64,000 bases of DNA from Rhizobiaceae bacterium (GTDB taxonomy: Bacteria > Pseudomonadota > Alphaproteobacteria > Rhizobiales > Rhizobiaceae): contig JAHBYV010000005.1 in the NCBI GenBank assembly GCA_019635795.1, forward strand, positions 159,167-223,166, given 5' to 3'. Below the pieces are notes generated by a model. It was not told where the DNA came from. It did no database searches and saw only the letters and a program-made list of their open reading frames with translations. This document shows, piece after piece, positions 2,477-27,676 of this stretch. The translations under genes and the position numbers were made by a program. Within the stretch, counting starts at the first letter, position 1. Each line of letters opens with the position of its first letter.

Positions 2477-2908
2477 ATGGAACATTCAGACTCTTCGTCT
2501 CGTGGCGGCGAGATGTTGATTGAACTGACTGCCGACGTTGTATCGGCTTATGTTAGCAATAATTCCGTGCCTGCATCGGAGTTGCCAGGCCTCATTGCGG
2601 AAATCCATGCCGCGCTCGGTCGGATTGGGACAACTCCCGAACCACAGGCTCCGGCGGACAAGCAGAAGCCGGCAGTAAATCCAAAGCGTTCAGTACATGA
2701 CGACCATATCGTCTGTCTTGAGGACGGAAAGAAGTTCAAGTCACTCAAGCGCCATATCATGACGCACTACAATCTCACGCCTGAGCAGTACCGCGAAAAG
2801 TGGGGCCTTGATGCGAACTATCCCATGGTGGCGCCAAACTATGCTGCAGAAAGATCCCAGCTTGCAAAGAAGATGGGACTTGGCCGCAAGCGGAAGGCCC
2901 GCAAGTAA
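2477..2908 (+). CDS. mucR: MucR/Ros-family zinc-finger transcriptional regulator
   Basis: A 143-residue DNA-binding protein of the Ros/MucR family, global regulators of surface polysaccharide, motility and virulence genes in Rhizobiales. The N-terminal part (about 12-50) carries the conserved [16 protein letters not shown] oligomerisation region. The zinc site is C80-x2-D83-x9-H93-x3-H97, then [16 protein letters not shown] and the basic tail GRKRKARK. The second ligand is Asp, not Cys, a known variation in this family. The start is supported by AGGAAA about 10 nt upstream and by family length. It is followed by a strong terminator and faces a convergent gene. Confidence 0.95.
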
Positions 2909-2928: not shown

Positions 2929-2965
2929 AAAGGGCATCGCCGACGGCGGTGCCCTTTATTTTTTG
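2929..2965 (+). terminator. Intrinsic terminator of mucR (probably bidirectional)
   Basis: AAAGGGCA pairs with TGCCCTTT around an inner CGCC-GAC-GGCG stem, followed by ATTTTTT. It starts about 20 nt after the mucR stop and contains the stop codon of the convergent gene at 2956, so it probably serves both strands. Confidence 0.85.
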
Positions 2966-3228
2966 CGCAAGCGGTCGCGAGCCTGCTTTAGCGCTATGTG
3001 ACGGTTGAGGTCATAACTCCAATGCCGCTGCAGCCCCTTGATCCGTTCTGCTTTCAGTGCGCGGTCGATCCGTTGGCCAATTGCCTTCCGGCTTATTGTT
3101 CCCTCCGATAGCACCTTATCCAGATCGACTCCGCACAGTAGTTGTAGTGCAGCACGCTGCGCTGCTTCGGATTGTGCGGCGTTGGCGCGCGCCCGGAAAT
3201 TTTTAGCCTCTCTTGCGAGTTCGTTCAT
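2956..3228 (-). CDS. Conserved small basic cytoplasmic protein, unknown function
   Basis: 90 residues starting MNELAREAKNFRARANAAQ and ending with a basic tail (QARDRLRKK). The start was placed at 3228 because GGAGAAA lies 6 nt upstream; a longer upstream frame has no such support. No signal peptide or membrane segment. The pattern LLCGVDLDKV...HWSYDLNRHIALKQ recurs, from memory, in Rhizobiales proteins annotated only as cytoplasmic or hypothetical. It is divergent from gafY with about 200 bp between them, so a regulatory link is possible but unproven. Its 3' end lies in the mucR terminator. Confidence 0.75.
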   Translation of the reverse strand: MNELAREAKNFRARANAAQSEAAQRAALQLLCGVDLDKVLSEGTISRKAIGQRIDRALKAERIKGLQRHWSYDLNRHIALKQARDRLRKK

Positions 3229-3392
3229 TTGCTTTCTCCATTTGAGATTGCAGATTGAGCGAGTCAACAAAGGTGTGGAAAACCGTGGTGCAAATGCGCG
3301 CTTGAGCGTCAAAAAAAGACAATATAAACAAATTAATAGGTTGGTTTTCAACAGGCGGGAACGCTCATTCTCTCCACCTGCGCTCAAACCCG

Positions 3393-3416
3393 AATATAAG
3401 AAGGAATTCCTATATT
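3393..3416. promoter_or_regulatory. Operator-like palindrome overlapping the gafY translation start region
   Basis: A perfect 10-bp palindrome AGGAATTCCT (3402-3411) flanked by AATATA (3393-3398) and TATATT (3411-3416), ending just before the GAGGG ribosome-binding site of the gene starting at 3429. The position suits a repressor or an autoregulatory site. The binding protein is unknown. Confidence 0.4.
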
Positions 3417-3428
3417 GAGGGTCGTTGC

Positions 3429-3851
3429 ATGAAGAGCTTTGCTATCAAGGAAAAGTGGTTTCAGCCAAAGGACAGTTTTGAATGGGAGGCATTCCTCAAC
3501 AATATTGGAGAGACGCGGCTGAGCCGTTCGCAGGAACGCGCGATTGAACTGTGCGGCAACATCATCGAAATCATTTCGGCGCTGTTTAACGTTCCAAGCC
3601 GGGAATTGCGCTCACCTCACCGCAGCAGCCAATCCATAACCCAGGTGCGGCAGATCGCGATGTATGTCGCACATGTGGTCATGCGGCTTTCCATGAAAGA
3701 AGTCGGGATCGGATTTGACCGCGATCGCACCACGGTTCTCTATGCCTGCCAGCAAGTTGAAGACCTTCGCGACGATCTGGAGTTCGATCAAATGGTGGCG
3801 CGTGCAGAGCGCGTGACGGCGGCCGCGTTCTACTCCAAGGTGGAAGGCTGA
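3429..3851 (+). CDS. gafY: GafY-like GTA activator: solitary DnaA-domain-IV-type HTH protein
   Basis: 140 residues. Residues about 50-112 match DnaA domain IV: FNVPSRELRSPHR, RQIAMYVAHVVM, then GFDRDRTTVLYACQQVEDL, which corresponds to the DnaA signature around RDHTTVLHA. There is no AAA+ ATPase domain, so it cannot be an initiator. This architecture, followed 3 nt later by a DUF6456 gene, is that of Caulobacter GafY and of the N-terminal half of Rhodobacter GafA, which activate GTA promoters. The GTA cluster about 9 kb downstream supports the call. The start has GAGGG about 8 nt upstream. The generic alternative name is DnaA-like HTH protein. Confidence 0.78.
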   Translation: MKSFAIKEKWFQPKDSFEWEAFLNNIGETRLSRSQERAIELCGNIIEIISALFNVPSRELRSPHRSSQSITQVRQIAMYVAHVVMRLSMKEVGIGFDRDRTTVLYACQQVEDLRDDLEFDQMVARAERVTAAAFYSKVEG

Positions 3852-3854
3852 CCG

Positions 3855-4634
3855 ATGCGCGACGAACTACGGCTTTTAAAATTCCTGATGTGCGGTCCTG
3901 CAAGTTTCGGAGATTTGTCGGGACAGGAAAAGGTTCTGATCATGCGCGATGGGGGAAAGCAGATCGGGGTGAACCGGGTGGTGATTGGCTTGCTCGAGCG
4001 GCGCGGATTGCTGGCGTTCGATGGCGCTATGCTGATGCTTACCGAAACCGGGCTAGCAGCAGCAAAGCGGGCAAATGCTGTGCGCTCGGAACAGTATAAG
4101 GCGCAACACCTTGATATTGAAATGCAATGTGTTGTGGGCGCGGAGACGATCCATGCCGTGAACCTGAACGAATCACCCCTCGCGCAAATTGCGCGCAGGA
4201 AGGACAAGCAGGGAAATCCCTTCCTCGCCGGTGATGAATTTCGTGCGGGCGAAAGATTGCGGGCAGATTATACGCGGGGCCAGATCATGCCTCGCCTCGG
4301 TGCGAATTGGGAAGCTGCGGTTTCGCCGAGAGGTGGCGGCGCCTCGGGCGGCGTGGCCGAACTTACGGAAGCTGCGCTGTCCGCGAGAATACGGGTCGAA
4401 AAGGCGCTGGCAGCCGTGGGACCGGAGCTTTCCGGCGTGCTTGTTGATGTGTGCTGTTTCCTCAAGGGACTTGAAACCGTCGAAGCCGAGCGGTGCTGGC
4501 CCGCCAGATCTGCGAAACTGATGCTAAAGGCGGGGCTGGCTACTCTGGCGCGACATTATGAGCCTGCACAGACCCGCAGACATGAGCGCATGCTGCATTG
4601 GGGAGCGCATGACTACAGGCCCTCAATTGCCTAG
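3855..4634 (+). CDS. gafZ: GafZ-like DUF6456 protein, probable transcription anti-terminator of the GTA cluster
   Basis: 259 residues. Residues 1-75 look like a winged-helix region (GVNRVVIGLLERRGLL, MLTETGLAAAKRA). Residues about 100-240 are the DUF6456 domain with ESPLAQIARRKDKQGNPFL, GERLRADYTRGQ and a late CCFLKGLE...ARSAKLMLKAGL helix pair. In Rhodobacter this domain is the C-terminal half of GafA, which contacts RNA polymerase. In Caulobacter the separate protein GafZ acts with Nus factors to read through terminators in the GTA cluster. It is co-transcribed with the gafY-like gene (3-nt gap) and its 3' end overlaps sufE by 12 nt on the other strand. Domain call firm; function inferred. 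Confidence 0.75.
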   Translation: MRDELRLLKFLMCGPASFGDLSGQEKVLIMRDGGKQIGVNRVVIGLLERRGLLAFDGAMLMLTETGLAAAKRANAVRSEQYKAQHLDIEMQCVVGAETIHAVNLNESPLAQIARRKDKQGNPFLAGDEFRAGERLRADYTRGQIMPRLGANWEAAVSPRGGGASGGVAELTEAALSARIRVEKALAAVGPELSGVLVDVCCFLKGLETVEAERCWPARSAKLMLKAGLATLARHYEPAQTRRHERMLHWGAHDYRPSIA

Positions 4635-5045
4635 TGCAACCTCTGCGTCACGCTTGATGCGCTGCACCATAGATCGCAAACCGTTCGAACGCTGTGGGGT
4701 CAGATGCTCGTCCAGCCCCAGCCCACGCAAGACAGCTTCAGCGTCAATTGCAGTGATTTCACTGGCGCGCCTGCCGGAAAAAAGCGCCAGCAAAATAGCA
4801 ACCAGACCACGCACGATGTGGGCGTCGGATGTACCCGTATAGGTGATGACGGGGTCTGAACCGCTGGCGACCTCGGTCAATAACCAGACCTGACTGACGC
4901 AGCCGGGAACCTTGTTCTGGGCCGTTTGCGCGCTGGCCGGAAATTCTGGCAGGGATTCACCAAGTTCAATCACATAGCGGTAGCGATCTTCCCAGTCATC
5001 GAGAAAGGCAAAGTCGTCCTGAATGCTTTCAATCGTAGTCGTCAT
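4623..5045 (-). CDS. sufE: SufE-family sulfur acceptor protein
   Basis: 140 residues, cytosolic. SufE takes persulfide sulfur from the cysteine desulfurase SufS and passes it on for Fe-S cluster assembly. The acceptor cysteine is C49 in KVPGCVSQVW, followed by a typical SDAHIVRGLVAILLALFSGR helix and a C-terminal LTPQRSNGLRSMVQRIK. The start at 5045 (MTTTIESIQDDFAFLDDW) fits the family N-terminus; the 12 extra upstream codons do not. The DUF5330 gene ends 32 nt upstream on the same strand, so the two may be co-transcribed. No suf operon is nearby. Confidence 0.92.
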   Translation of the reverse strand: MTTTIESIQDDFAFLDDWEDRYRYVIELGESLPEFPASAQTAQNKVPGCVSQVWLLTEVASGSDPVITYTGTSDAHIVRGLVAILLALFSGRRASEITAIDAEAVLRGLGLDEHLTPQRSNGLRSMVQRIKRDAEVALGN

Positions 5046-5077
5046 GGTTCCGCATATAGGTCGAGACACGCGCGGCG

Positions 5078-5374
5078 TCACGGCCTAATTTCGGCGGGTC
5101 GTGCGGTCGGCACGGGGATAACTGGCGTATCTGGCCGCTTCGGCTCAACAACCTCGCCATTTTTGCTGACGGCATTCAAAACGCGAAGTCCGGTCTCGCA
5201 GAGTTTCGGGTTGTTTGCGCATGTAGTTGCCAGATCGCGCGCGCCCTTGGCTGCTTCCTGAACAGTCTGGAGGTGGTCAAGTTCTTCGCGCGCGGTATCC
5301 GTCCACTTCAGGCCGAGCGGCAAAAAGTAGACGACCAGTGCGAACCAGAACAGAAATCGAAGCAGAAAAAACAT
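5078..5374 (-). CDS. DUF5330 family small membrane-anchored protein
   Basis: 98 residues with one N-terminal hydrophobic segment (MFFLLRFLFWFALVVYFLPL), then a charged helical part, a CANNPKLC cysteine pair and a Pro-rich tail. Probably anchored in the inner membrane with the rest in the periplasm. The ATG at 5372-5374 follows GGAGACC, which decides against the longer frame. The family is common in Rhizobiales; its function is not known to me. It lies just upstream of sufE on the same strand. Confidence 0.8.
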   Translation of the reverse strand: MFFLLRFLFWFALVVYFLPLGLKWTDTAREELDHLQTVQEAAKGARDLATTCANNPKLCETGLRVLNAVSKNGEVVEPKRPDTPVIPVPTARPAEIRP

Positions 5375-13041: not shown

Positions 13042-13287
13042 TTCTACCGGCATCCCCCGCCAAGGGCCGCTTACGCATATAGGCTGATTATCGTTACAAT
13101 CCAAACCAAAAAGACCGATCAGCCTTTAACATTTCGTGTGCACGACTGCTTTTGTTCGACTGCAACGGGGAATTGAGCGCGCTAGATGCTGCGGTCCTTT
13201 GATAAGGGTCACGCCTGCCGGCCCGTCAGCATAATCATTGCCATTTCACAAAATCGGTACGCGGTGCAAATAATAGGAAAATAGTCC

Positions 13288-13316
13288 TTGACACCGTGGC
13301 GGTGGTTTGGTAGGTT
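13288..13316 (+). promoter_or_regulatory. Probable sigma70-type promoter of the GTA cluster
   Basis: A perfect -35 hexamer TTGACA (13288-13293), a 17-bp spacer, and a weaker -10 TAGGTT (13311-13316). Transcription would start near 13323, giving a leader of about 120 nt. The poor -10 box suits a promoter that needs an activator such as the GafY-like protein. The frame opening with TTG at 13288 is not a gene start. Confidence 0.6.
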
Positions 13317-13363
13317 TTATCTATCGTCGGAAAAGTGTGAGTGGCGCGGGACGAATGCGCAAT

Positions 13364-13407
13364 CTACCCCAATTTTGAGGGGGGTGGATGAATTCGCCAC
13401 CCTTTTT
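13364..13407 (+). terminator. Leader terminator with overlapping alternative hairpin (attenuator-like)
   Basis: Terminator: GGGTGG (13382-13387) pairs perfectly with CCACCC (13397-13402), 9-nt loop, then TTTTT (13403-13407). Alternative: CTACCCC (13364-13370) pairs with GGGGTGG (13381-13387), seven pairs with one G-U, using the same strand of the terminator. The two folds exclude each other. It lies between the promoter and the first GTA gene, so RNA polymerase must pass it. A tiny frame (13355-13378) covers the upstream arm. Regulation is inferred. Confidence 0.6.
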
Positions 13408-13443: not shown

Positions 13444-13911
13444 TTGCCACAATGGAACCGGGCGCGAGAGCGTGCGCAGCCTCAGATCGTCGAGCTTCAT
13501 GGTGTTCCAATCGATCTCTTGTCGGACGCCACCGGGCGCTCGTTAAACTCCCTTCGAAAACAGGCTGAAAATCACAAATGGAAACTTCCGGGTCAGGATG
13601 ACCGCACGGTTGAAAAGTTGCGTTTGGCCTCCACCGCAATTGCTCGCCGCGTTGAGCATGTGTTGCGATCTGCCGAAGGCGAGGGGCTGGATAAGGCCGA
13701 AATGGACGCCCTCAATTCGGCGATCCGGGTTACCGAAAAACTGATCGAGATTTTAAGTCCAGATGAAATCATCCGAGACAACGCCGCGCGGCAAAATGAA
13801 GACCTCGCGCACATGCTCGAACGCATTAACGAGCGAATACTCGGCCTTGCGCAAGAAATCGCAACTGACATGGTTGCGGGCAAATATGGGGCTGGCGGCA
13901 CAGGCGATTGA
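13444..13911 (+). CDS. GTA small terminase subunit-like protein (g1 position)
   Basis: 155 residues from a TTG start preceded by GGAGA 6 nt upstream; longer in-frame starts run into the promoter and leader terminator. Residues about 15-50 form a helix-turn-helix-like segment (VELHGVPIDLLSDATGRSL NSLRKQAENHKWKLPG region), as expected for DNA recognition by TerS. The C-terminal half is helical (EKLIEILSPDEIIRDNAAR). Its place before the large terminase matches g1 of the Rhodobacter GTA, which acts as TerS. The sequence itself is poorly conserved, so the role comes mainly from position. Confidence 0.75.
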   Translation: MPQWNRARERAQPQIVELHGVPIDLLSDATGRSLNSLRKQAENHKWKLPGQDDRTVEKLRLASTAIARRVEHVLRSAEGEGLDKAEMDALNSAIRVTEKLIEILSPDEIIRDNAARQNEDLAHMLERINERILGLAQEIATDMVAGKYGAGGTGD

Positions 13912-15145
13912 AAACGAATGGCTCATGACCTGCCTGCCGGGCCGCTACCGCGCCTTTGGGGTGCCAGATAACTGGCTTGTTCTGGGCGGTCGCGGGTCTG
14001 GCAAGACACGTCTTGGCTCCGAATGGACAATCGCTCAGGCATGCGGCCTGCCGCCAATGGGCGAGACTGCAAGGCCCAACGGGCGAATTGCATTGGTGGG
14101 GGAAACGCTCGGCGACGTGCGCGAAGTGATGATCGACGGACCGTCCGGCATCAGGACCGTCGCGCGAGGAGATCGGCCCCGATATGAGCCAACCCGGCGA
14201 AGGCTTTTGTGGACATCGGGAGCCGTTGCATACGTGTTTTCGTCGGAAGATCCCGAGAGCTTGCGAGGGCCGCAATTCATGGCGGCTTGGTGCGACGAGG
14301 CGGCGAAATGGAAAAACGCGGAACATTGTTTCGACATGCTGCAATTCGGCTTGCGCCTTGGCGACAGGCCCAAGCAGCTTGTCACGACAACGCCCAAGCC
14401 TACTTCGCTCATCAAGCGGCTTATGTCCGATCCGGCTTTTCATGTGGATCGGTATTCGACGCGCGACAATGCGGCAAATCTGGCAGATGGCTTCATCGCC
14501 GCGCTGGAGAGCCGATATGCTGGCACAAGGCTCGGACGACAGGAACTCGATGGTGAGCTTATTGAGGACCGCGAGGATGCGCTGTGGACACGCGGCCAGA
14601 TTGAGGCGGCATTTGTGTCAGAAGCTCCACAGCTTGGGCGCATCGTCATTGCGGTTGATCCACCGGCCAGCTCGCGCCGAACATCGGATGCCTGCGGAAT
14701 CGTGGCGGCAGGGCTTGCTGATGGCGGACGCATTTTCGTGTTGGCCGATGAAAGCGTTCGCGGTGCAAAGCCATCTGAATGGGCGGCGCGCGCCGTTGCG
14801 CTTTACCACCGGCTGCAAGCTGATTGCATCGTTGCAGAGGTCAATCAGGGCGGGGACATGGTGGCCGCCGTGATACGAACGGTCGATCCTGCAGTTGCCG
14901 TGAAGGAAGTGCGCGCCCGTCGCGGAAAGTGGCTGCGCGCTGAACCGGTTGCTGCGCTTTATGCGCAGGGGCAGGTGCGCCATGTGGGCCGGTTCCCGGA
15001 ACTGGAAGATGAAATGTGTGACTTCGGCCCGGACGGACTTTCCGGCGGTCGTTCGCCAGACAGGCTGGACGCGCTGGTGTGGGCTGTGACCGATCTCTTG
15101 CCACGCGCAATGGGCGAGCCGCGCATTCGCGATTTTGGCGCATAG
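13886..15145 (+). CDS. GTA large terminase (DNA-packaging ATPase/nuclease, g2)
   Basis: 419 residues from MGLAAQAIENEW. The ATPase domain has Walker A GGRGSGKT (about 34-41) and a Walker B-like AAWCDEA (Asp-Glu about 137-138). The C-terminal RNase H-like nuclease has AVDPPAS, AEVNQGG and SPDRLDALVWA acidic motifs. In GTAs this motor packs random host DNA by headful. It overlaps the small terminase gene by 26 nt. The start is uncertain; a frame extending upstream to 13763 exists but has no family support. Confidence 0.93.
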   Translation: MGLAAQAIENEWLMTCLPGRYRAFGVPDNWLVLGGRGSGKTRLGSEWTIAQACGLPPMGETARPNGRIALVGETLGDVREVMIDGPSGIRTVARGDRPRYEPTRRRLLWTSGAVAYVFSSEDPESLRGPQFMAAWCDEAAKWKNAEHCFDMLQFGLRLGDRPKQLVTTTPKPTSLIKRLMSDPAFHVDRYSTRDNAANLADGFIAALESRYAGTRLGRQELDGELIEDREDALWTRGQIEAAFVSEAPQLGRIVIAVDPPASSRRTSDACGIVAAGLADGGRIFVLADESVRGAKPSEWAARAVALYHRLQADCIVAEVNQGGDMVAAVIRTVDPAVAVKEVRARRGKWLRAEPVAALYAQGQVRHVGRFPELEDEMCDFGPDGLSGGRSPDRLDALVWAVTDLLPRAMGEPRIRDFGA

Positions 15146-15162: not shown

Positions 15163-16320
15163 ATGAATTTGAAATGGCCCTGGTCGCGGGGTGCGAACGC
15201 GCGCCTTGAGCGCAAGGAAGCGTTCGGCTTCGTTACGCTTCAGACGCAAGGTGAACCGCACTGGACACGCCGGGATTATGTGTCTTTGGCGCGCAACGGA
15301 TTCATGGCAAATCCCGTGGCGCATCGCGCTGTTCGTATGATTTGCGAAGCCGTGGCGGCCGTACCCCTGCTGATGTTCGAGGGCGAGCGGGAACTGGTGC
15401 AACATCCGCTGCTGGACCTGCTGGCGCGGCCAAACCCCAGGCAGGCTGGCGGCACATTTCTTGAAACGCTCTACGGGCATTTGATTATTTCAGGGAATGC
15501 CTATGTCGAATTGATCGAGGTCGGGCCGCAAGCGCGCGAGTTGCATTTGCTGCGGCCCGACCGGGTGACGGTGACGGCTGATTCAAGCGGCTGGCCGACG
15601 GGGCTGGAACACCGGGAAGGTGCTAGGAAACGCACCGTGCCGCTTGGCCTGTTTCCGGGTGGCGGCGCGGCGCATCTGCGTCTGTTCCATCCGCTGGACG
15701 ATCACTACGGATTTGCGCCTCTTGAGGCGGCATTGGTGGCGCTGGATACGCACGCGGCTGCCGCGCGCTGGAACAAGGGCTTGCTGGACAACTCCGCCCG
15801 GCCATCCGGCGCGCTGGTCTATGCGCCGAAAGATGGCGGCAACCTTTCGGGCGAACAGTTCGACCGCCTGAAGTCAGAGTTGGAAGAAGGCTATTCCGGC
15901 CCGGCGCGGGCAGGGCGGCCTTTGCTGCTGGAAGGCGGGCTCGACTGGAAGCCGATGGCATTAACCCCGAAAGACATGGATTTTGTGGAGGCCAAACACT
16001 CGGCAAGCCGCGACATTGCTTTGGCGCTGGGCGTTCCGCCCATGCTGCTAGGCATTCCCGGCGACAGCACATATTCCAACTATCAGGAAGCCAACCGGGC
16101 ATTCTATCGGCTGACAGTTTTGCCAATGATTGCGCGCACGCTTCGCGATCTTTCGGCATGGCTTGCGCCGCTATACAACGAAAACCTGCGGCTGTGGTTC
16201 GATGCTGACGGCATTGAAGGTCTTGCGGCTGAACGTGAGGCGCTTTGGGCGCGTGTCAATTCCGCAACCTTCCTGAGCGAAGCGGAAAAGCGTGCGGCGG
16301 TGGGATACGGAAGCGAATAG
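15163..16320 (+). CDS. GTA portal protein, HK97 family (g3)
   Basis: 385 residues. Typical phage portal pattern: HRAVRMICEAVAAVPLLMFEG near the N-terminus, LLDLLARPNPRQAGGTFLE, YVELIEVG, and late IALALGVPPMLLGIPGDSTYSNYQEANRAFY. Twelve copies form the ring at one capsid vertex through which DNA is packed and leaves. RBS AAGAGGATAAAAG precedes the ATG. It follows the terminase by 17 nt. Confidence 0.93.
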   Translation: MNLKWPWSRGANARLERKEAFGFVTLQTQGEPHWTRRDYVSLARNGFMANPVAHRAVRMICEAVAAVPLLMFEGERELVQHPLLDLLARPNPRQAGGTFLETLYGHLIISGNAYVELIEVGPQARELHLLRPDRVTVTADSSGWPTGLEHREGARKRTVPLGLFPGGGAAHLRLFHPLDDHYGFAPLEAALVALDTHAAAARWNKGLLDNSARPSGALVYAPKDGGNLSGEQFDRLKSELEEGYSGPARAGRPLLLEGGLDWKPMALTPKDMDFVEAKHSASRDIALALGVPPMLLGIPGDSTYSNYQEANRAFYRLTVLPMIARTLRDLSAWLAPLYNENLRLWFDADGIEGLAAEREALWARVNSATFLSEAEKRAAVGYGSE

Positions 16321-16693: not shown

Positions 16694-17269
16694 ATGGATA
16701 GTAGGGCTTTGGCGCGCCTGCTGGATACCAAGCGCGCTGACCTCGCACTGGCGCGCGTCGATGAGCAGGGCGAGTTTAGTGGTTATGCGAGCCTGTTTGG
16801 CGAAACCGACCTTGCGCATGATGTGGTTGAACGTGGCGCATTCGCGGAATCGCTTGCAAAGCGCGGCGCGGGTCGGGTCCGCATGTTGTTCCAGCATGAC
16901 CCGAACCAGCCAATCGGTGTGTGGACGCATATCGCAGAAGACGAGCGCGGACTCTTCGTCAAAGGCAGGCTGACACAGGGGGTTGGCCGCGCGGCGGAGG
17001 TCCTGAGCCTCATGCGGGCGGGCGCGCTGGACGGCCTGTCCATCGGCTTTCGCACCGTTCGTGCGTCTCCCGACAAATCAAAAGGTGTGCGCCGGATTCT
17101 TGAGGCCGATCTTTGGGAAATCTCCGTGGTGACTTTCCCCATGCTGCCAAGCGCGCGCGTGTCGGTCATCAAAGCCTGTTCCGGCTCGCGCGATGAAAAA
17201 CAACTGGCTGCGCGCATTCGCTCAGCTTCCCGAATGTTCAACGAAAGGAACGAACATAGATGGCATTGA
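16694..17269 (+). CDS. HK97-family prohead protease (g4)
   Basis: 191 residues. The fold pattern begins with EGEFSGYASLFGETDLAHDVVERGAF-like sequence. Catalytic residues by family are H68 in RMLFQHDPNQPIG and S116 in GLSIGFRT. It cleaves the N-terminal delta domain of the major capsid protein during maturation. It overlaps the capsid gene by 10 nt, consistent with coupled translation. Confidence 0.92.
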   Translation: MDSRALARLLDTKRADLALARVDEQGEFSGYASLFGETDLAHDVVERGAFAESLAKRGAGRVRMLFQHDPNQPIGVWTHIAEDERGLFVKGRLTQGVGRAAEVLSLMRAGALDGLSIGFRTVRASPDKSKGVRRILEADLWEISVVTFPMLPSARVSVIKACSGSRDEKQLAARIRSASRMFNERNEHRWH

Positions 17270-18501
17270 ACCACATGGAACGTGCGCCTGAAAACAAGGG
17301 CGGAGAACTGACAGATGCATTCAGCAGCTTCATGAGCTCGTTTGAAAGCTTCAGGCAGGCAAATGATGAACGGCTGGCCCAACTGGAAACGCGCTCCGGC
17401 GCGGATGTTCTGACGACGGAAAAGGTGGACCGAATTTCGCGTGCACTCGATGAACAAAAGCGCGCCCTGGATGCTTTGGCGATCAAGGGAATGCGCCCTG
17501 GACTTGGCGGGGCAGGGATCGTGCAGCCGGATGAACATAAGGAGGCGTTTGAAGCCTATATGCGTTCTGGCGATGATCGCCAAATTCGGGCGATTGATAC
17601 GAAAGCAATGTCCTACGGCTCCGGTCAGGACGGCGGATACCTCGTGCCAGCCCAGACGGAAGCGGAAGTTGCCAGGCGTCTCGCCGATCTTTCACCCATT
17701 CGCTCGATTGCTTCGGTGCGGCAGGTCTCTGCGGCGGTTCTGAAGAAGCCGTTCGCGGTTGGCGGGCCGTCCGTGGGCTGGGTTTCCGAAACGGCGGCGC
17801 GTCCGCAAACCAACACGCCAACCCTTGCAGAACTGCAATTCCCCACGATGGAGCTTTACGCAATGCCGGCTGCAACGGCTGCGTTGCTTGAAGATTCAGT
17901 CGTCAATCTCGACCAGTGGATCGCCAGCGAGGTGGACGCGGCTTTCGCTGCACAGGAAGGCACAGCTTTCGTCACCGGCGACGGCGTCAACAAGCCGCGC
18001 GGGCTGCTGAATTACGATCAGGTTGCCGAAACGTCGTGGGAATGGGGTAAGGTTGGCTATGTCGCTTCAGGCGTGTCGGGTGCGCTTCCGGCAAGCAACC
18101 CGTCCGACAAGCTGATTGATCTCGTCTATGCGCTGAAGGCAGGCTATCGCCAGAACGCAAGCTGGGTGATGAACCGCAAGACGCAGGCCATGATCCGCAA
18201 GCTGAAGGATGCGGACGGCAATTATCTTTGGGCGCCGCCAGCCGTGGCAGGACAGCGCGCGACATTGCTGGGCTTCCCGCTCGTTGAAGCTGAGGACATG
18301 CCGGACGTGGCGGCAAACAGCGCTTCCATTGCCTTCGGTGATTTCGCCCGAGGTTATCTGATCGTTGACCGCGCCGGCGTGCGCGTGCTGCGCGATCCAT
18401 ATTCTGCCAAGCCGTATGTGCTGTTCTACACAACCAAGCGCGTTGGTGGCGGTGTGCAGGATTTCGACGCGATCAAGCTTATGAAGTTCGCTGCTTCCTG
18501 A
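17260..18501 (+). CDS. GTA major capsid protein, HK97 family (g5)
   Basis: 413 residues. Residues 1 to about 110 form a helical, partly coiled-coil delta domain (FESFRQANDERLAQLETR). The mature shell protein probably begins close to AMSYGSGQDGGYLVPAQTE. HK97 elements include AATAALLEDSVVNLDQWIASEV, EGTAFVTGDGVNKPRGLL and YLIVDRAGVRVLRDPYSAKP near the end. It forms the icosahedral head. A strong terminator follows the stop codon, which may keep capsid mRNA more abundant than the downstream tail message. Confidence 0.95.
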   Translation: MALNHMERAPENKGGELTDAFSSFMSSFESFRQANDERLAQLETRSGADVLTTEKVDRISRALDEQKRALDALAIKGMRPGLGGAGIVQPDEHKEAFEAYMRSGDDRQIRAIDTKAMSYGSGQDGGYLVPAQTEAEVARRLADLSPIRSIASVRQVSAAVLKKPFAVGGPSVGWVSETAARPQTNTPTLAELQFPTMELYAMPAATAALLEDSVVNLDQWIASEVDAAFAAQEGTAFVTGDGVNKPRGLLNYDQVAETSWEWGKVGYVASGVSGALPASNPSDKLIDLVYALKAGYRQNASWVMNRKTQAMIRKLKDADGNYLWAPPAVAGQRATLLGFPLVEAEDMPDVAANSASIAFGDFARGYLIVDRAGVRVLRDPYSAKPYVLFYTTKRVGGGVQDFDAIKLMKFAAS

Positions 18502-18528: not shown

Positions 18529-18567
18529 GCGGCCCCGGAGTGCACATCCGGGGTCGCTTTATTTTTC
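18529..18567 (+). terminator. Intrinsic terminator after the major capsid gene
   Basis: GCGGCCCCGGA (18529-18539) pairs with TCCGGGGTCGC (18547-18557) with one G-U pair, 7-nt loop, followed by TTTATTTTTC. It lies within the GTA cluster between capsid and connector genes. It should stop most transcripts unless polymerase is made termination-resistant, for example by the GafZ-like protein. Confidence 0.88.
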
Positions 18568-18576
18568 AAAAGATGC

Positions 18577-19155
18577 GTGGTGATCGTGACCCTAATTCGA
18601 ACCAGCGAACCGGGTGCAGAACCCGTAACAATCACAGAACTCAAACAATATTTGCGGCTCGGTCATTCCAGCGAGGATGAGTTGCTGATGGGCCTCATAA
18701 GCGCTGCCCGAGAGGATCTGGAGCGCTCCACCGGGCTTGCCCTTATCGAGCAGAATTGGCGGTTGGTGCTGGATGACTTGCCTGCCGATGGAATTATCAG
18801 GCTTGGACGGCGCCCTGTCCGTGAGGTGACTGCGGTCACGATGTATGACGCGACGGGCGAACCTGAGGCGCTTGCATCAACACGGTACCAGCTTGATGCC
18901 TATTCCCAACCGGCGCGCTTGCTTGTGAAGGACGGGCCGCAAGACCTGCGGCCAATGAACGGCATCGAGGTGGATTTCACCTGCGGCTACGGCGAGGCGG
19001 GGCCGGACGTACCGGACATACTGCGCCGGGCCATTATCCAGCTTGCTGCGCATTGGTACGAGTTCCGTTCAAGCTATGGTCCTGCCGATCAGCCGGTTTC
19101 TTATCCGGCGGGATATGAACGCATGATTTCGAGCTATGTGGAAAGGCGTCTGTAA
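18577..19155 (+). CDS. GTA head-tail connector protein (g6)
   Basis: 192 residues from a GTG start. Family pattern: EPVTITELKQYLRLGHSSEDELLM, then LISAAREDLERSTGLALIEQNW and the C-terminal LRRAIIQLAAHWYEFRSSYG, as in phiE125 gp8-type connectors. It forms the adaptor ring under the portal. It starts only 10 nt after the capsid terminator. Its TAA overlaps the next ATG (TAATG). Confidence 0.9.
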   Translation: MVIVTLIRTSEPGAEPVTITELKQYLRLGHSSEDELLMGLISAAREDLERSTGLALIEQNWRLVLDDLPADGIIRLGRRPVREVTAVTMYDATGEPEALASTRYQLDAYSQPARLLVKDGPQDLRPMNGIEVDFTCGYGEAGPDVPDILRRAIIQLAAHWYEFRSSYGPADQPVSYPAGYERMISSYVERRL

Positions 19156-19490
19156 TGGCGACATTGAACATTGATCCGGGCGAATTTCGCGCTGGGCTTT
19201 CGCTACAGGAATGCCGCACGATCTATGATGAAACGGGCGGGCATTCCGAAGAATGGATCGAGACTGACAGGGTTTTTGGTAAGATCGAGCCTTTGAACGC
19301 CAGCGCTGATTTTGTGGCAGACCAGACCGTGGAGACAGTGACCCACAGAATTTACCTTAGATGGCAATCAGGCTTGGCCAGCGGAATGAGATTGGTCAAA
19401 GATGACCGCAAATTCGAGGTCTCAACCGTGCACGACCCGGATGAAACCGGCCGCTATCTGGTCTGCGGAGCGATGGAGAAAGGCGTTTGA
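19155..19490 (+). CDS. GTA head closure / head-tail adaptor protein (g7)
   Basis: 111 residues with the SPP1 gp16-like adaptor pattern: CRTIYDETGGHSEEWIETDRVFGKIEPL and VETVTHRIYLRWQSGLASGMRLV, then a short beta-rich end. It closes the head below the connector ring. The start shares an A with the preceding stop codon. Its stop overlaps the start of the 53-residue ORF that follows. Confidence 0.88.
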   Translation: MATLNIDPGEFRAGLSLQECRTIYDETGGHSEEWIETDRVFGKIEPLNASADFVADQTVETVTHRIYLRWQSGLASGMRLVKDDRKFEVSTVHDPDETGRYLVCGAMEKGV

Positions 19491-19648
19491 AGCTTTCCGT
19501 CAAACTGACCATGCAAGGTTTGATCCGTGCCTTGCGCGGATACGGACATGACCTTGCAGAAGACATTGAACAAGGGCAGGTTCAGGTAAAGCCGCAAAAG
19601 CGCGAGCGCGCTGCTGCAAGGGGAGGGGCGGATGGCAGCAGCGATTGA
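19487..19648 (+). CDS. Small GTA-cluster ORF of 53 residues
   Basis: TTG-initiated frame starting MKLSVKLTMQGLIRALRGYG and ending GGADGSSD, basic and helical with no cysteine. The TTG overlaps the stop of the head-closure gene (TTGA) and has GGAG 8 nt upstream. The frame ends inside the DUF3168 gene (17-nt overlap). The tight TTGA coupling also occurs at 20869 in this cluster, which supports a real gene. An internal ATG at 19511 would give 45 residues. Function unknown. Confidence 0.6.
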   Translation: MKLSVKLTMQGLIRALRGYGHDLAEDIEQGQVQVKPQKRERAAARGGADGSSD

Positions 19649-20036
19649 GTTGCAGAAGGCGATTTTCTCGGCCCTGCAATCGGATGAAGAATTGATCGCC
19701 GCGCTTGGCGGGACAAAAATCTACGATCACACCAAGTCAGATGTGGCGTTTCCCTATATCACCTTCGGGCGTACGAGCGTTTATGACTGGAGTACCGGTA
19801 CCGAAATTGGAACCGAGCACCTGTTCACGATTCACGTATGGTCGAAAGCAAAAGGCAAGAAAGAGACACTGGATATCATGCAGCGACTGGAAGCAATCCT
19901 GCATGACCAACCGCTTGCCATGACCGGTTACCGGCTCGTCAATCTGCGGCAGGAGTTCGGCGAGACACGCTTCGATGAGGACCAATCCGTCTATCACGGC
20001 CTGCTTCGCTACAGGGCGTTAGTGGAAGCCGACTGA
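19632..20036 (+). CDS. DUF3168 tail-completion protein of the GTA (g8)
   Basis: 134 residues. DUF3168 pattern: AIELQKAIFSALQSDEELIAAL, YDHTKSDVAFPYITFG, then HVWSKAKGKKETLDIMQRLEAIL. Proteins of this family terminate the tail tube at the head side. GGGAGGGGCGG lies before the ATG. The following 87 nt to the tail tube gene contain a small hairpin without a U-run. Confidence 0.9.
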   Translation: MAAAIELQKAIFSALQSDEELIAALGGTKIYDHTKSDVAFPYITFGRTSVYDWSTGTEIGTEHLFTIHVWSKAKGKKETLDIMQRLEAILHDQPLAMTGYRLVNLRQEFGETRFDEDQSVYHGLLRYRALVEAD

Positions 20037-20123
20037 CCTGATTTTCAAATCCCGTTGTGAGTTGCGCTTCTGACCCGCCGGGTCAGGGAATGCGCGCGAT
20101 TGCCTATAAAAGGAGTACCTCCA

Positions 20124-20540
20124 TTGGGTGCACAGAAAGGAAAGGACCTTCTGTTGAAGGTCGATCTGGGCGGCGTTGGCGGCTTTGCCACCGTTGCAGG
20201 ATTACGCACCAAGAAAATTGCGTTCAACAGCCAGACTGTCGATGTGACCGATCAGGACTCGGCTGGCCGTTGGCGAGAGCTATTGGCCGGAACGGGAGTT
20301 CAGCGCGCTTCAATCAGCGGCGCTGGCATTTTCAAGGATGCGCAATCCGATGCTCGCGTCCGTGAATTATTCTTCGCGGGGAGTATTGTGAGCTGGCAAT
20401 TCTCGATCCCGGATTTCGGCACGGTTCAAGGTCCGTTCCAGATTACTGCACTGGAATATTCGGGGAGCTATGACGGTGAGGTTGTGTTCGACATCGGCAT
20501 GGAGTCGGCAGGCCAGATCAGCTTTGCGGTGTCCGCATGA
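20124..20540 (+). CDS. GTA major tail (tube) protein, TP901-1 family (g9)
   Basis: 138 residues. A TTG start is chosen because AAGGAG sits 8 nt upstream; a TTG at 20100 is in frame but lacks a ribosome-binding site. Pattern: GAQKGKDLLLKVDLGGVGGFATVAGLRTKK near the start and SGSYDGEVVFDIGMESAGQISF at the end, typical of phage major tail protein TP901-1. It polymerises into the tail tube. It overlaps the next gene by ATGA. Confidence 0.92.
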   Translation: MGAQKGKDLLLKVDLGGVGGFATVAGLRTKKIAFNSQTVDVTDQDSAGRWRELLAGTGVQRASISGAGIFKDAQSDARVRELFFAGSIVSWQFSIPDFGTVQGPFQITALEYSGSYDGEVVFDIGMESAGQISFAVSA

Positions 20541-20872
20541 GCGTCAATCGCAGGCGCGGTGAAGTTGAGGCGATACTTGATGGAAAGCCGCGCACCCTTT
20601 GCCTTACGCTTGGAGCACTGGCCGAGCTGGAAGATGCTTTCGCCGCAGATGACCTTGGCGCGTTGGTCGAGCGCTTCGCCAGCGGTCGGCTCAGCGCCCG
20701 CGATATTATGCGGATAATCGGGGCAGGGCTGCGAGGCGCGGGCACGCAGGTAACCGACGACGATGTCGCTGCTATGCAAGTCGAAGGCGGAGCAAGCGCC
20801 TATGCGGCCATCGTGTCGGAGCTTCTGACAGCAACCTTCGGCGGCAGGGAGCCTCAACAGCCAAACCCTTGA
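20537..20872 (+). CDS. GTA tail assembly chaperone-like protein (g10)
   Basis: 111 residues: NRRRGEVEAILDGKPRTLCLTLGALAELEDAF, then LSARDIMRIIGAGLRGAG, the pattern of the family annotated as gene transfer agent family protein (GTA-gp10). It corresponds to gpG-type tail chaperones that load the tape measure protein. It overlaps both neighbours by 4 nt (ATGA and TTGA). Confidence 0.88.
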   Translation: MSVNRRRGEVEAILDGKPRTLCLTLGALAELEDAFAADDLGALVERFASGRLSARDIMRIIGAGLRGAGTQVTDDDVAAMQVEGGASAYAAIVSELLTATFGGREPQQPNP

Positions 20873-21087
20873 AGGCCGCAGCGGGCGGTTCACATCCCTT
20901 TCCATGGGATGATGCGATTGCCATCGGCCTTGGCCTGCTGCGGCTTTCACCAGCGCAATTCTGGGCGATGACGCCACGCGAATTTGAGCGCGCATCCAGC
21001 GTGCTGCGTCCGGCGCGCAAAAATGCCCCCTCGCGACAGGAGCTTGAGGCGCTTGTCGTCCTGTTCCCCGACAAGGAGATGCAATGA
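20869..21087 (+). CDS. Phage tail assembly chaperone (g10.1)
   Basis: 72 residues from a TTG start overlapping the preceding stop. Contains HPFPWDDAIAIGLGLLRLSPAQFWAMTPREFERAS, the hallmark of the small GTA tail chaperone family. It probably acts with the preceding protein on the tape measure. It overlaps the tape measure gene by ATGA. Confidence 0.85.
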   Translation: MKAAAGGSHPFPWDDAIAIGLGLLRLSPAQFWAMTPREFERASSVLRPARKNAPSRQELEALVVLFPDKEMQ

Positions 21088-21626
21088 ACGGCGAAAAAAT
21101 GAGCGTCGCGATTGAGGCCGATACCAGCGGCTTTCAATCGGCGCTGGAAAGCCTGCAATCGAGCGCAGACAAATTTGGCACGCAGCTGTCCAAGGGTCTC
21201 GCCAGCGCGGTCGTCAGCGGCAAAGAGCTGGATGATGTTATTCGCCAGATTGGCATGAACATGGCGACAACCGCGCTGAACAATGGATTGAAGCCGCTAG
21301 GCAATGTCGCAAGCACAATGTTCTCTAGCCTTCTCGGCGGCGGAACGCCCGTTACTCCATTTGCAACGGGCGGTGTAGTTTCTTCACCAACCTACTTCCC
21401 GATGGGTGGGGGAACGGGGCTGATGGGCGAGGCCGGCGCAGAAGCAATCATGCCATTACAGCGCACGGCGGACGGGAAGCTGGGCGTTGCTGCAAGCGGG
21501 GGCGGCTCGCCGGTCAATGTCGTTTTCAATGTCAGCACGCAGGACGCATCGTCTTTCCGCAAGTCCGAAGCACAACTCACCGGAATGCTGGCGCGCGCAG
21601 TGCGCCGAGGCACCCGCACATTCTAA
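21084..21626 (+). CDS. GTA tail tape measure protein (g11), short form
   Basis: 180 residues. N-terminal helical part (TSGFQSALESLQSSADKFG), a hydrophobic middle (MNMATTALNNGLKPLGNVAS), then a Gly-rich segment with FATGGVVSSPTYFPMGGGTGLMGEAGAEAIMPL, the conserved end of lambda-type tape measure proteins. It sets tail length. At 180 residues it is much shorter than normal siphophage tape measures and, from memory, somewhat shorter than the Rhodobacter GTA one, implying a very short tail. Confidence 0.88.
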   Translation: MNGEKMSVAIEADTSGFQSALESLQSSADKFGTQLSKGLASAVVSGKELDDVIRQIGMNMATTALNNGLKPLGNVASTMFSSLLGGGTPVTPFATGGVVSSPTYFPMGGGTGLMGEAGAEAIMPLQRTADGKLGVAASGGGSPVNVVFNVSTQDASSFRKSEAQLTGMLARAVRRGTRTF

Positions 21627-21635
21627 AGGTGGACG

Positions 21636-22277
21636 ATGAGCGAATTGTCAGAATTTCACGATGTGCGCTTTCCGCTATCCGTTGCCTTCGGCGCTACGGG
21701 CGGGCCGGAACGGCGTAACGAAATCATATCTCTTACATCAGGTCGCGAAAAGCGGAATGCGCGCACAGCCCATTCGCGCAGGCGATATGATGCTGGCACC
21801 GGCGTTAGATCACTGGCCGACCTTTATGAGGTCATTTCATTTTTTGAAGCGCGCCGCGGGTCGTTGCACGGCTTTCGCTTTCGAGACCCCTTTGACATGA
21901 AGTCATGCCAGCCAGATCAGGCTGTCAATGCCGCAGATCAATCATTGGGGTCGGGCGACGGCACGAAGCGGCGCTTTTCGCTTTGCAAGACATATGGATC
22001 CGGTGCGCAGGCTTACATGCGCCCAATCCGCAAGCCGCTCCTGTCCACTCTGGTGGTTGCCATCAATGGCGTCACGGCCAACACATGGGAGTTCGATGAC
22101 GACACAGGCGACATTGTGTTCGCGCCTGGTTCGGTGCCGCCCGGCGGCGCTCAAGTGACAGCAGGCTATGAATTCGATGTGCCTGTGCGCTTTGACACGG
22201 ACAGCCTTTCGGCAAGCCTGACTGCCTTCAAAGCCGGACAGTTTCCAGCAATTCCACTTCTTGAGGTGAGGCTTTGA
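21636..22277 (+). CDS. DUF2460 / TIGR02217 distal tail protein of the GTA (g12)
   Basis: 213 residues. Pattern: FPLSVAFGATGGPERRNEIISLTSGREKRN, YEVISFFEARRGSLHGFRFRDPFD and ITGGYEFDVPVRFD-like TAGYEFDVPVRFDTD. This is the distal tail protein that begins the baseplate. AAAGGTGG lies before the ATG. It overlaps the next gene by 4 nt. Confidence 0.92.
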   Translation: MSELSEFHDVRFPLSVAFGATGGPERRNEIISLTSGREKRNARTAHSRRRYDAGTGVRSLADLYEVISFFEARRGSLHGFRFRDPFDMKSCQPDQAVNAADQSLGSGDGTKRRFSLCKTYGSGAQAYMRPIRKPLLSTLVVAINGVTANTWEFDDDTGDIVFAPGSVPPGGAQVTAGYEFDVPVRFDTDSLSASLTAFKAGQFPAIPLLEVRL

Positions 22278-23155
22278 GTTATCCGCAACAATTGGTGGAC
22301 CATCTGGGACAAACGGTGACGACCGTGTGCCGCTGCTGGCTTCTGCGACGTCGGGATGGTGTTGTAACTGGCTTCACCGACCATGACATGGCTTTGACAG
22401 TGAAGGATGTGGTGTGCGAGTCGGAAAGCGGCTTCACCGCCAGTGAGGCCAAGCAGGGTCTCGGACTGCAAGTAGATTCGATCGATGTGGAAGGTGCGCT
22501 TTCCTCAGCCAGTATAACAGATGAGGACATTGCACTCGGGCACCTTGATGGCGCGGCTGTTGATACGTTCCTCGTAAACTGGCGCAATCCTGAGCAATAT
22601 TCGCACATCGCATCCGCCATCGTAGGCAAGATAAAGCGAAGCGATGGCCGATTTGTTGCAGAACTTGAAAACCGACTGCGCGCGCTCGACCAACCCAATG
22701 GCCGGTTTGTTCTGCGAAACTGCGACGCTGAGCTTGGCGACACGCGCTGCAAGTTCGCGCTTGGGCCTTCACACAAGAGCACCGGAACGGTCGCCGGGGT
22801 CCGTAACTGTTCAACGATCACGGCCGCAGGGCTTTCTGCATTCGATGCCGGCTTGTACGACAACGGACTGCTCGAATGGACGTCCGGTAAGCTGGCAGGC
22901 CAGACGGTCAGGGTGGCCCATCATTCCAGACAGGGCAGCACGGTGGTGCTGAATCTTGCTGCCGGATCGGTTCAACCAGAAATTGGTGATGCGTTTGCCC
23001 TCACCGCAGGCTGTGACAAGACCTTTGAAACGTGCCGGGTACGGTTCGGCAACACATTGAATTTTCGGGGATTTCCACATCTGCCAGGCAATGACCACGC
23101 CTACTCCTATGCCACCGCCAACGGAGTTTTCGATGGAGGTCCGCTGGTCACATGA
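22274..23155 (+). CDS. DUF2163 / BR0599-family tail hub protein (g13)
   Basis: 293 residues. Contains CRCWLLRRRDGVVTGFTDHDMALTV near the start, a central NCDAELGDTRCKF cysteine-bearing segment, and the C-terminal CDKTFETCRVRFGNTLNFRGFPHLPG. The family is named phage BR0599 after a Brucella gene. In the Rhodobacter GTA the equivalent protein is part of the baseplate hub and carries an iron-sulfur cluster by conserved cysteines. It overlaps both neighbours by 4 nt. Confidence 0.92.
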   Translation: MSYPQQLVDHLGQTVTTVCRCWLLRRRDGVVTGFTDHDMALTVKDVVCESESGFTASEAKQGLGLQVDSIDVEGALSSASITDEDIALGHLDGAAVDTFLVNWRNPEQYSHIASAIVGKIKRSDGRFVAELENRLRALDQPNGRFVLRNCDAELGDTRCKFALGPSHKSTGTVAGVRNCSTITAAGLSAFDAGLYDNGLLEWTSGKLAGQTVRVAHHSRQGSTVVLNLAAGSVQPEIGDAFALTAGCDKTFETCRVRFGNTLNFRGFPHLPGNDHAYSYATANGVFDGGPLVT

Positions 23156-23574
23156 TCGCCGAACGTATCGTTGAGGAAGCCTTGAGCTGGGTAGGCACAC
23201 CCTACCGGCACCAGGGCTCGCGCAAACATGTCGGTTGCGATTGCCTAGGGCTGGTTCGCGGCGTTTGGCGTGAGGTTTACGGGCGCGACGCGGAGCAGCC
23301 CGGACCTTATGCGCCGGATTGGGCGGAAGCAGGTGGCATTGAAACCATGCTTGAAGCTGCAATGCGGCACTGCATCACGCGCACAGGTCAACCGCAGGCG
23401 GGCGATCTGATCCTGTTTCGATGGCGCCCCAATCTGCCCGCAAAACATGCGGGCATCCTCGTATCGTCCGACAAGTTCATCCACGCATATCAGGGACACG
23501 CCGTAACCGTCTCCTCGCTGGTTCCGCAATGGAGACAGCGAATTGCAGGCGCATTTCAGTTCCCGGAAAGCTGA
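23152..23574 (+). CDS. NlpC/P60-type peptidase of the GTA tail (g14)
   Basis: 140 residues. NlpC/P60 fold with SWVGTPYRHQGSRKHVGCDCLGLV (nucleophile C31) and KHAGILVS (catalytic His about 99). It should cut peptide bridges in the recipient's murein as the tail penetrates. It lies between the hub and the tail-tip giant and overlaps the hub gene by 4 nt. Confidence 0.92.
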   Translation: MIAERIVEEALSWVGTPYRHQGSRKHVGCDCLGLVRGVWREVYGRDAEQPGPYAPDWAEAGGIETMLEAAMRHCITRTGQPQAGDLILFRWRPNLPAKHAGILVSSDKFIHAYQGHAVTVSSLVPQWRQRIAGAFQFPES

Positions 23575-23579
23575 TCCAG

Positions 23580-27455: not shown

Positions 27456-27469
27456 TTAAGGAAACGGAT

Positions 27470-27676
27470 ATGATCGATTCAAAACCGTGGTTCGCATCGC
27501 GCACTGTATGGGCCTCTCTCGTGACAATAGTGCTTGCGATGGCAAACTATGCCGGAGTCGCGACAGAGGGATTGCAGCCGGATATGCTCACTGATGCCAC
27601 GTTAAACCTCGCAACTACAATTGCAGGTATTGTGGCGCTTTTGGGGAGGTTGCAAGCAACCAGCCGGATTGGCTAG
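27470..27676 (+). CDS. Small holin-like membrane protein at the end of the GTA cluster
   Basis: 68 residues. A short N-terminal WF-rich start (MIDSKPWFASRTVWASLV), two hydrophobic segments (about 14-30 and 45-60) and a basic C-terminus (GRLQATSRIG). Size, topology and the SKPW...SRT motif resemble small phage holin-like proteins. AAGGAAA precedes the ATG and the gap to the tail-tip gene is 14 nt, so it is probably the last gene of the GTA transcript. A role in cell lysis is plausible but not shown; no endolysin is next to it. Confidence 0.6.
   Translation: MIDSKPWFASRTVWASLVTIVLAMANYAGVATEGLQPDMLTDATLNLATTIAGIVALLGRLQATSRIG

Follow-up and report, generated by a model that had tools for sequence, protein, structure and literature searches.

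A split GafA-type gene pair and the conserved promoter of its neighbouring GTA cluster in a Rhizobiaceae bacterium

Introduction

Gene-transfer agents (GTAs), particles derived from domesticated viruses that move DNA from one bacterium to another, are common in the alphaproteobacteria and their release kills the producing cell. The question of what switches them on is open, and for the GafA family of activators two mechanisms compete, recruitment through the omega subunit of RNA polymerase and anti-termination. A stretch of DNA from a Rhizobiaceae bacterium (the window, 64,000 nucleotides in all) raises this question directly, as it carries a gene pair resembling gafY and gafZ and, beginning about 9 kb past it, a GTA cluster of the RcGTA type. 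Through which DNA would such a pair act? The pair itself is of a published type; a conserved control site ahead of the GTA genes would make the switch testable.

According to Sherlock and Fogg (2022; PMC9638019), Hyphomicrobiales carry gafA as two genes, one DnaA-like and one for a DUF6456 protein, flanked by mucR (or an HTH gene) on the upstream side and by sufE on the downstream side, and a similar synteny occurs in Brucellaceae. The survey of Gozzi et al. (2022; PMC9632790) counts 759 GafZ homologues, 494 of them with an adjacent GafY. Two-tier GTA control has been shown in Caulobacter, where GafZ permits the passage of terminators and its enrichment needs a near-perfect palindrome between the -35 and -10 elements (Tran and Le, 2024; PMC11150451); the circuit is restated in PMC13236601.

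Identity of the gafY-gafZ pair

The preliminary description of the window had named a gafY-gafZ-like pair, and both genes are where it placed them (Table 1). The product of the first matches Pfam Bac_DnaA_C (E 2e-18) and no other Pfam family up to E 1; AAA+ is absent, and DnaA (1j1v, E 1.3e-8) is its match in the PDB. In an alignment, the recognition helix reads DRTT in the window protein and DHTT in E. coli DnaA, the differing residue being one that we take to be a DnaA-box contact in the latter. Directly downstream, after a gap of 3 nt, follows the DUF6456 gene (Pfam E 5e-48); a gafY homologue likewise adjoins gafZ in the relatives' loci examined, and a DUF6456 match is present in Caulobacter vibrioides, our control genome. 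Profile comparison bears out the assignment to a split GafA. HMMs of the relatives' GafY and GafZ proteins match the two parts of fused single ORFs of 356-403 aa (L033, L035, L037), with E-values of 5e-6 to 4e-4 for the N part and, for the GafZ profile, 4e-34 to 6e-43 for the C-terminal part; these ORFs come from three genomes of one other family and are called Rhodobacter-type by their architecture. We are nearly certain that the pair represents GafA, the activator of the GTA, in split form.

Such a pair is not new. Its layout, a small DnaA-like gene followed by a DUF6456 gene between mucR and sufE, is that of the split gafA of Hyphomicrobiales, and the earlier statement that no description existed in Brucellaceae has to be withdrawn, as the split arrangement, with similar synteny in that family, is already in PMC9638019. 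The window adds a promoter dyad, a shared palindrome, a post-capsid terminator and linkage to the GTA genes in this order, features not described in the portions of PMC9638019 drawn on here. Between mucR and gafY lies a small divergent ORF (2956-3232, minus strand, about 91 aa from the ATG at 3232), for which a Pfam search gave no match and which has no equivalent in two related loci (L100 and L101). Weak second DUF6456 homologues occur elsewhere in some genomes (e.g. G017:C6:185500 and G453:C1:1022005).

A sequence search of the PDB with GafZ returned nothing at E 10; the AlphaFold2 model of the protein (pLDDT 80, pTM 0.63), compared with the PDB by Foldseek, returned nothing at E 0.001, the best E being 0.49, with sigma-factor chains among the weak matches.

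GafZ is informative about the host, whose genome (3.26 Mb) has two genus mates of 4.4 and 4.6 Mb. Identity to eight named Brucella/Ochrobactrum GafZ proteins is 45-48%, a ninth, from Brucella endophytica, reaches 59% over residues 77-258 only, and the highest values for other genera are 55% across almost the whole length and 62% across a part. In the GafZ tree, many forks of which are weak, the window sequence and its genus mates form a group (97/84) that lies outside the Brucella-Ochrobactrum clade. Identity and tree together rule out an origin in the genus Brucella; the label Brucellaceae given earlier is unsupported by these sequences, although the host may still belong to a sister genus of Brucella.

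Table 1. Coordinates of the features discussed, in window positions
Feature	Position	Strand	Remarks
mucR	2477-2908	+	Pfam ROS_MUCR, 5e-52; published upstream neighbour of the pair
Predicted gafY -10, TATAAG	3395-3400		prediction
Operator-like palindrome, TAAGA-N6-TCCTA	3397-3412		overlaps the predicted gafY -10
gafY-type gene	3429-3851	+	solitary DnaA domain IV (helix-turn-helix) protein, 140 aa
gafZ-type gene	3855-4634	+	DUF6456 protein, 259 aa
sufE	4623-5081	-	Pfam SufE, 1.5e-44; published downstream neighbour of the pair
Operator-like box (TAGGAAAATAGTCC)	13274-13287	+	abuts the GTA -35; GGAA in 60/62 promoters
GTA promoter -35	13288-13293	+	TTGACA; TTGAC in 61/62 promoters
Spacer dyad, CACCG-TGG-CGGTG	13292-13304		candidate GafZ-binding element
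GTA promoter -10	13311-13316	+	TAGGTT, 17-nt spacer; TA...T in 60/62
Second -10-like element, TATCGTC	13322-13328	+	at predicted start site; candidate promoter-proximal pause site
Leader hairpin with U-run	13380-13404	+	weak, z -2.3; fails strict rule
GTA gene 1 (small terminase position)	13444-13911	+	homologues in part of the relatives (tblastn); no PHROG
GTA large terminase	13763-15145	+	phrog_979, 3e-34; start uncertain
GTA portal	15163-16320	+	phrog_12, 1e-56
GTA head maturation protease	16694-17269	+	phrog_80, 8e-54
GTA major capsid protein	17260-18501	+	phrog_10, 2e-80
Intrinsic terminator after capsid gene	18529-18557	+	-24.2 kcal/mol, z -3.3; strong
Remaining GTA cluster, from adaptor through large tail protein, plus the short ORF after it	18577-27676	+	ORF list, PHROGs

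The GTA cluster and its linkage to the pair

The full GTA cluster recognised earlier at 13.3-27.7 kb holds up: 9/10 proteins match PHROGs (TerL, portal, protease, capsid, adaptor, major tail, tape measure, tail assembly and large tail protein) and no interrupted genes are seen in the ORF list. The tenth, the product of the first gene, has no PHROGs match. Its probable start is the TTG at 13444, which follows a CGGAG and is kept, together with that CGGAG, in the genus alignment. The TTG at 13288, at which an ORF could also be opened, is hardly a start codon because the same letters form the -35 hexamer, and in Caulobacter, too, an annotated TTG of gtaT lies upstream of the transcription start (PMC11150451).

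Copies of the capsid gene, 59-91% identical, occur in 102 other genomes of the family. Where capsid gene and gafZ share a contig (77 genomes), gafZ is upstream on the same strand in 69 and otherwise placed in 8. Since 69/77 genomes share order, strand and a distance of 13.1-30.1 kb (median 16.0), the linkage of gafZ to the GTA genes is a family trait; of the linked circuit announced for the window, the closeness of the pair to an apparently complete cluster thus stands, while nothing in the linkage is special to this genome.

A conserved GTA promoter that tracks gafZ

When the window is aligned with its genus mates, one conserved block of about 80 bp emerges from an otherwise poorly alignable leader, and it recurs in most of 39 loci with a terminase gene. 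A weight matrix was made from 34 of these, window included; left out were L083 (partial), L085 and L101 (no match), L103 (leader outside the stretch) and L100 (without gafZ). The matrix found the promoter in 28/39 hold-out regions, where it scored 48-86 bits; shuffles reached no more than -18. The 11 misses comprise an incomplete region (L216), a partial match (L225), a locus without gafZ (L251), two without a match and with only 517 and 1060 bases before the terminase gene (L220, L227) and six whose strict motif is found on the contig concerned but outside the region examined (L224, L241, L243, L244, L245 and L248; far off in the last two). The 34 matrix loci and 28 hold-out matches form a set of 62 promoters with the consensus TTGAC(A), a spacer dyad (A)CCGTNACGG(T), a -10 of the form TAGNNT and a second -10-like element.

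The centre of the dyad lies 10 nt from the start of TTGAC in 58/62 promoters, its inner CGT.ACG is complete in 55, and pairing averages 3.9/5 pairs as opposed to 1.3 in shuffled spacers. The window carries GGCGG where most promoters carry GACGG and scores 4/5 pairs by the rule used for the 62; read with a 3-nt centre, its CACCG/CGGTG is complete. A YANNNTC follows exactly 5 nt past the -10 in 62/62 promoters.

To what extent these elements accompany gafZ was seen in a sample of 151 genomes of the family, in which GTA-positive means a capsid identity of at least 59% and gafZ-positive a DUF6456 match of at least 90 bits, so that genomes with a weaker capsid match or a split capsid gene (G414, G447) fall among the GTA-negative and DUF6456 matches below 90 bits (G385, G462 and second copies) were dropped. 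By this count 103 genomes are GTA-positive and 122 gafZ-positive; 100 have both, 3 the capsid gene only, 22 gafZ only and 26 neither. The presence of gafZ in 100/103 GTA-positive genomes (Fisher 5e-13) is in line with the 196/208 genomes reported to have gafA homologues in PMC9765227. The strict promoter motif, searched in whole genomes, occurs at 87 sites in 84/151 genomes (reversed control: 5), all gafZ-positive (84/122 against 0/29 gafZ-negative genomes; Fisher 8e-13): in 69/100 genomes with GTA and GafZ (absent in the other 31), 15/22 with GafZ only, 0/3 with GTA but no GafZ and 0/26 with neither. Kinship of the genomes overstates these Fisher values, and within the GTA-positive genomes p is only 0.03.

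The three GTA-positive genomes that have no DUF6456 match (G014, G426 and G360) are instructive. In both of the loci inspected (L100 of G014, L101 of G360), mucR, gafY and sufE are retained. Two loci of one genus without gafZ (L100, L251) keep the -35, the box before it and YANNNTC, their dyad has only 1-2/5 pairs and their -10 reads TATAAA; L101 has no such promoter within 1.1 kb upstream. As G014 and G426 belong to one genus, gafZ was lost in at most two events, and for this reason the decay of the dyad is supportive, not proof, of its belonging to GafZ.

The place of the dyad supports the two-tier idea, as this is where Caulobacter GafZ needs its site. Caulobacter crescentus resembles the window in having two genes, a palindrome in the -35/-10 spacer of its GTA promoter and an internal terminator (PMC9632790, PMC11150451); its palindrome, GCGCCCG-CTGGCGC, differs from the window dyad in sequence and is alike in position. 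By analogy, GafZ would bind the spacer dyad. The promoter described here is the likely route by which the GafYZ switch acts. For GafY, a search for words common to the gafY and GTA promoters turned up GC-rich or SOS-like ones only. Neither the promoter dyad nor the shared palindrome is described in the portions of the GafY/GafZ literature searched, and it is this control DNA, with the second -10-like element, that is new here. A motif that is single in 82/84 genomes (G029 has three sites, G437 two), tracks GafZ and decays upon its loss offers a precise DNA target for separating the two competing mechanisms, and a means of recognising GafZ-controlled GTAs in genomes.

A palindrome shared by the gafYZ and GTA promoters

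A palindrome, TARGA-N6-TCYTA, is present at both the gafYZ and the GTA promoter, the form at the GTA -35 being TAGGA-N6-TCCTT. Its strict form stands in 42/79 gafY leaders where 0.2 would be expected, and 68/79 reach 9 or 10 of 10, where shuffles lead one to expect about 3.2; at the GTA promoter, the box scores 8-9 of 10 in 35/35 loci scored, 4 of the 39 being left out. G001 and G002 have a single exact TARGAN6TCCTA each, at gafY, and G000 has two, one of them at gafY; the reversed control gives 4 in G001, 5 in G002 and 23 in G000. Judged by eye, the surroundings of the second copy in G000 (L121, G000:C3:137650), TAAGAACATTGTCCTA, include a small ORF for an XRE-type regulator; this copy may be due to chance.

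The palindrome is probably the operator of a RogA-type repressor. An HTH-S24 protein, which its architecture suggests to be RogA-like, is encoded in 139/151 genomes and, at E 1e-20 or better, in 98/100 of those with GTA and GafZ; G000 and G019 lack it, and that of G408, counted as present, consists of residues 1-76 only. These proteins keep the motifs GDSM and EVMAK, presumably the catalytic residues. In this they differ from Caulobacter RogA, which lacks key cleavage residues (PMC9632790) and also binds gafYZ and not the GTA promoter, whereas the palindrome described here is at both. A RogA gene does not enter into the definition of a GafY/GafZ pair as such.

It is rather unlikely that the palindrome is a site for GafY, serving autoregulation and GTA activation, and not a repressor operator. 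It is the sole element found at both promoters, and Caulobacter GafY binds both whereas RogA binds only gafYZ and one other promoter (PMC9632790). The window genome (99.28% complete, 30 contigs) also keeps both sites, with the full palindrome at gafY, although a RogA-like gene was not found in it and is present in both genus mates; of the 11 leaders whose palindrome is weak, scoring no more than 8 of 10, nine come from genomes that do have the gene. On the other hand, the palindrome lies across the predicted gafY -10, a place in which a bound activator would be an obstacle. The boxes that DnaA domain IV recognises, as a monomer, are not palindromic, which also speaks against a GafY site, as does the near-constant presence of the RogA-like protein alongside GTA and GafZ. 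In two genomes where this protein is missing or partial the leaders are, moreover, poor: G019 has the lowest score of the 79 (7 of 10) and has lost the box at the GTA promoter as well, and G408 scores 8, has no recognisable site at gafY and keeps the GTA box. If the palindrome is a repressor operator, we read that of the window as recently orphaned, or else the RogA-like gene falls in an assembly gap.

A second element, GTTC-N7-GTTC, stands in 24/79 gafY leaders (among L069-L104 and L252-L277; 0.8 expected), and 13/15 leaders that also have the strict palindrome place the two 37 nt apart; the window gafY leader has no such box. We take the element to be the alphaproteobacterial LexA box. It suggests direct SOS control of the GTA in the relatives that carry it, the window excluded, and LexA-box-like sites at gafYZ would tie GTA release directly to DNA damage. 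Links between LexA and GTAs are already known in Rhodobacterales by other routes, LexA being required for RcGTA, apparently via CckA (PMC9638019), and LexA sites being predicted at the Dinoroseobacter GTA cluster (PMC6473078).

Terminators and the proposed switch

Two terminators had been described in the window, one in the GTA leader and one after the capsid gene, and only the second withstands comparison. A hairpin with U-run passes the strict rule in the post-capsid gap of 20/39 loci; elsewhere in the 239 kb surveyed, the coding strand has 14 strict hairpins, of which 7 fall in the cluster and 7 in the leader region (2 of the latter ahead of the promoter), and the opposite strand has 20. 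Several further loci fold a post-capsid hairpin without a U-run. The leader hairpin is weak, has no match aligning in the two genus mates (by eye) and has strict counterparts downstream of the promoter in 5/39 loci; as part of a conserved switch it was rejected.

From the protein families, the conserved promoter, the co-occurrence with GafZ, the shared palindrome and the post-capsid terminator observed in these genomes, together with what is known of Caulobacter, we regard as probable a split-GafA switch in which GafY activates and GafZ loads at the core promoter and passes the post-capsid terminator. Expressed from one operon, gafY and gafZ would be held down by a repressor, probably of the RogA type, through the palindrome over the -10. 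Once made, GafY would bring RNA polymerase to the GTA promoter, by analogy with its Caulobacter counterpart, and GafZ would bind the dyad between -35 and -10 and engage the polymerase there, while sigma is possibly held on the second -10-like element, a pausing step that is conjectural. Travelling with the polymerase past the post-capsid terminator, GafZ would then allow the head-completion and tail genes to be made. The terminator follows the first gene in Caulobacter and the capsid gene in the window.

It is unlikely that the action of GafZ is confined to initiation, with the protein serving as a sigma-like factor tethered to the omega subunit of RNA polymerase, the dyad as its promoter-recognition site and the post-capsid hairpin doing no more than set the capsid-to-tail ratio or protect the capsid mRNA. 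The model is GafA of Rhodobacter capsulatus, which is like the pair in its DnaA-like N-terminal and DUF6456 C-terminal parts, differs from it in being one fused protein and is proposed to work via omega; direct contact with omega is reported, and its C-terminal part binds the core promoter, a stretch with the -10 and -35 elements (PMC9638019). The position of the dyad suits initiation equally well, several loci have the hairpin and no U-run, and L100, without gafZ, has both the strong post-capsid terminator and a stronger -10. The terminator kept in L100 also counts against a strict need for GafZ, which may not be the sole route past it. Initiation alone is at odds, however, with Caulobacter, where GafZ occupancy over the cluster resembles that of RNA polymerase and GafZ lets the polymerase pass terGTA as well as E. 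coli rrnB T1 (PMC11150451), and with the U-run that follows the hairpin in 20/39 loci.

The split-GafA switch can tentatively be taken further. For lambda Q, a -10-like element just downstream could hold sigma, and such an element lies just downstream in the window promoter too. Anti-terminators of the lambda Q type also have a recruiting element between -35 and -10 (PMC11150451), and no relation of GafZ to Q was detected in the PDB by sequence (E 10) or by fold (E 0.001). GafZ might thus be a Q-like loader of unrelated origin, which binds the dyad while sigma is held on the second -10-like element and then rides through the terminator; the repressor palindrome would shut both tiers and LexA, in some relatives, the first directly, and in the genus that lost GafZ the dyad would have decayed and the -10 become TATAAA. 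Possible but doubtful as a whole, this reading would mean that DNA damage starts GTA production in a subset of the relatives.

Genomes with gafZ and no counted GTA

That the main role of the pair lies outside the GTA, e.g. in replication control, is very improbable: 22/122 gafZ-positive genomes have no counted GTA capsid gene and Caulobacter GafY was first named HdaB for its replication effect (PMC9632790), but GTA remnants stand behind the motif in 12/14 of the genomes inspected, on which ground service to another locus was rejected as well, and 26 genomes lack both genes. The 14 were among the 15 GafZ-only genomes with the motif, and in the remaining 2 the stretches were too short. Loss of the GTA in these genomes looks recent. 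In L292-L304, L300 excepted, the clusters have been eroded by internal deletions and the promoter motif is kept, and in several of them the terminase gene runs into the large tail gene.

Surroundings of the motif were examined for the loci extracted, and in three genomes (G019, G409 and G023) the strict motif lies at least 10 kb from the terminase gene or beyond the stretch examined. In G019 (L309), about 10 kb separate the GTA promoter motif from the terminase gene, the box before the -35 is lost and there is no RogA-like gene. The additional sites of G029 and G437 (L306, L307 and L308) are solitary GTA-type promoter copies away from the GTA genes, and one of them stands, as judged by eye, just 5' of a glycosyltransferase-like ORF.
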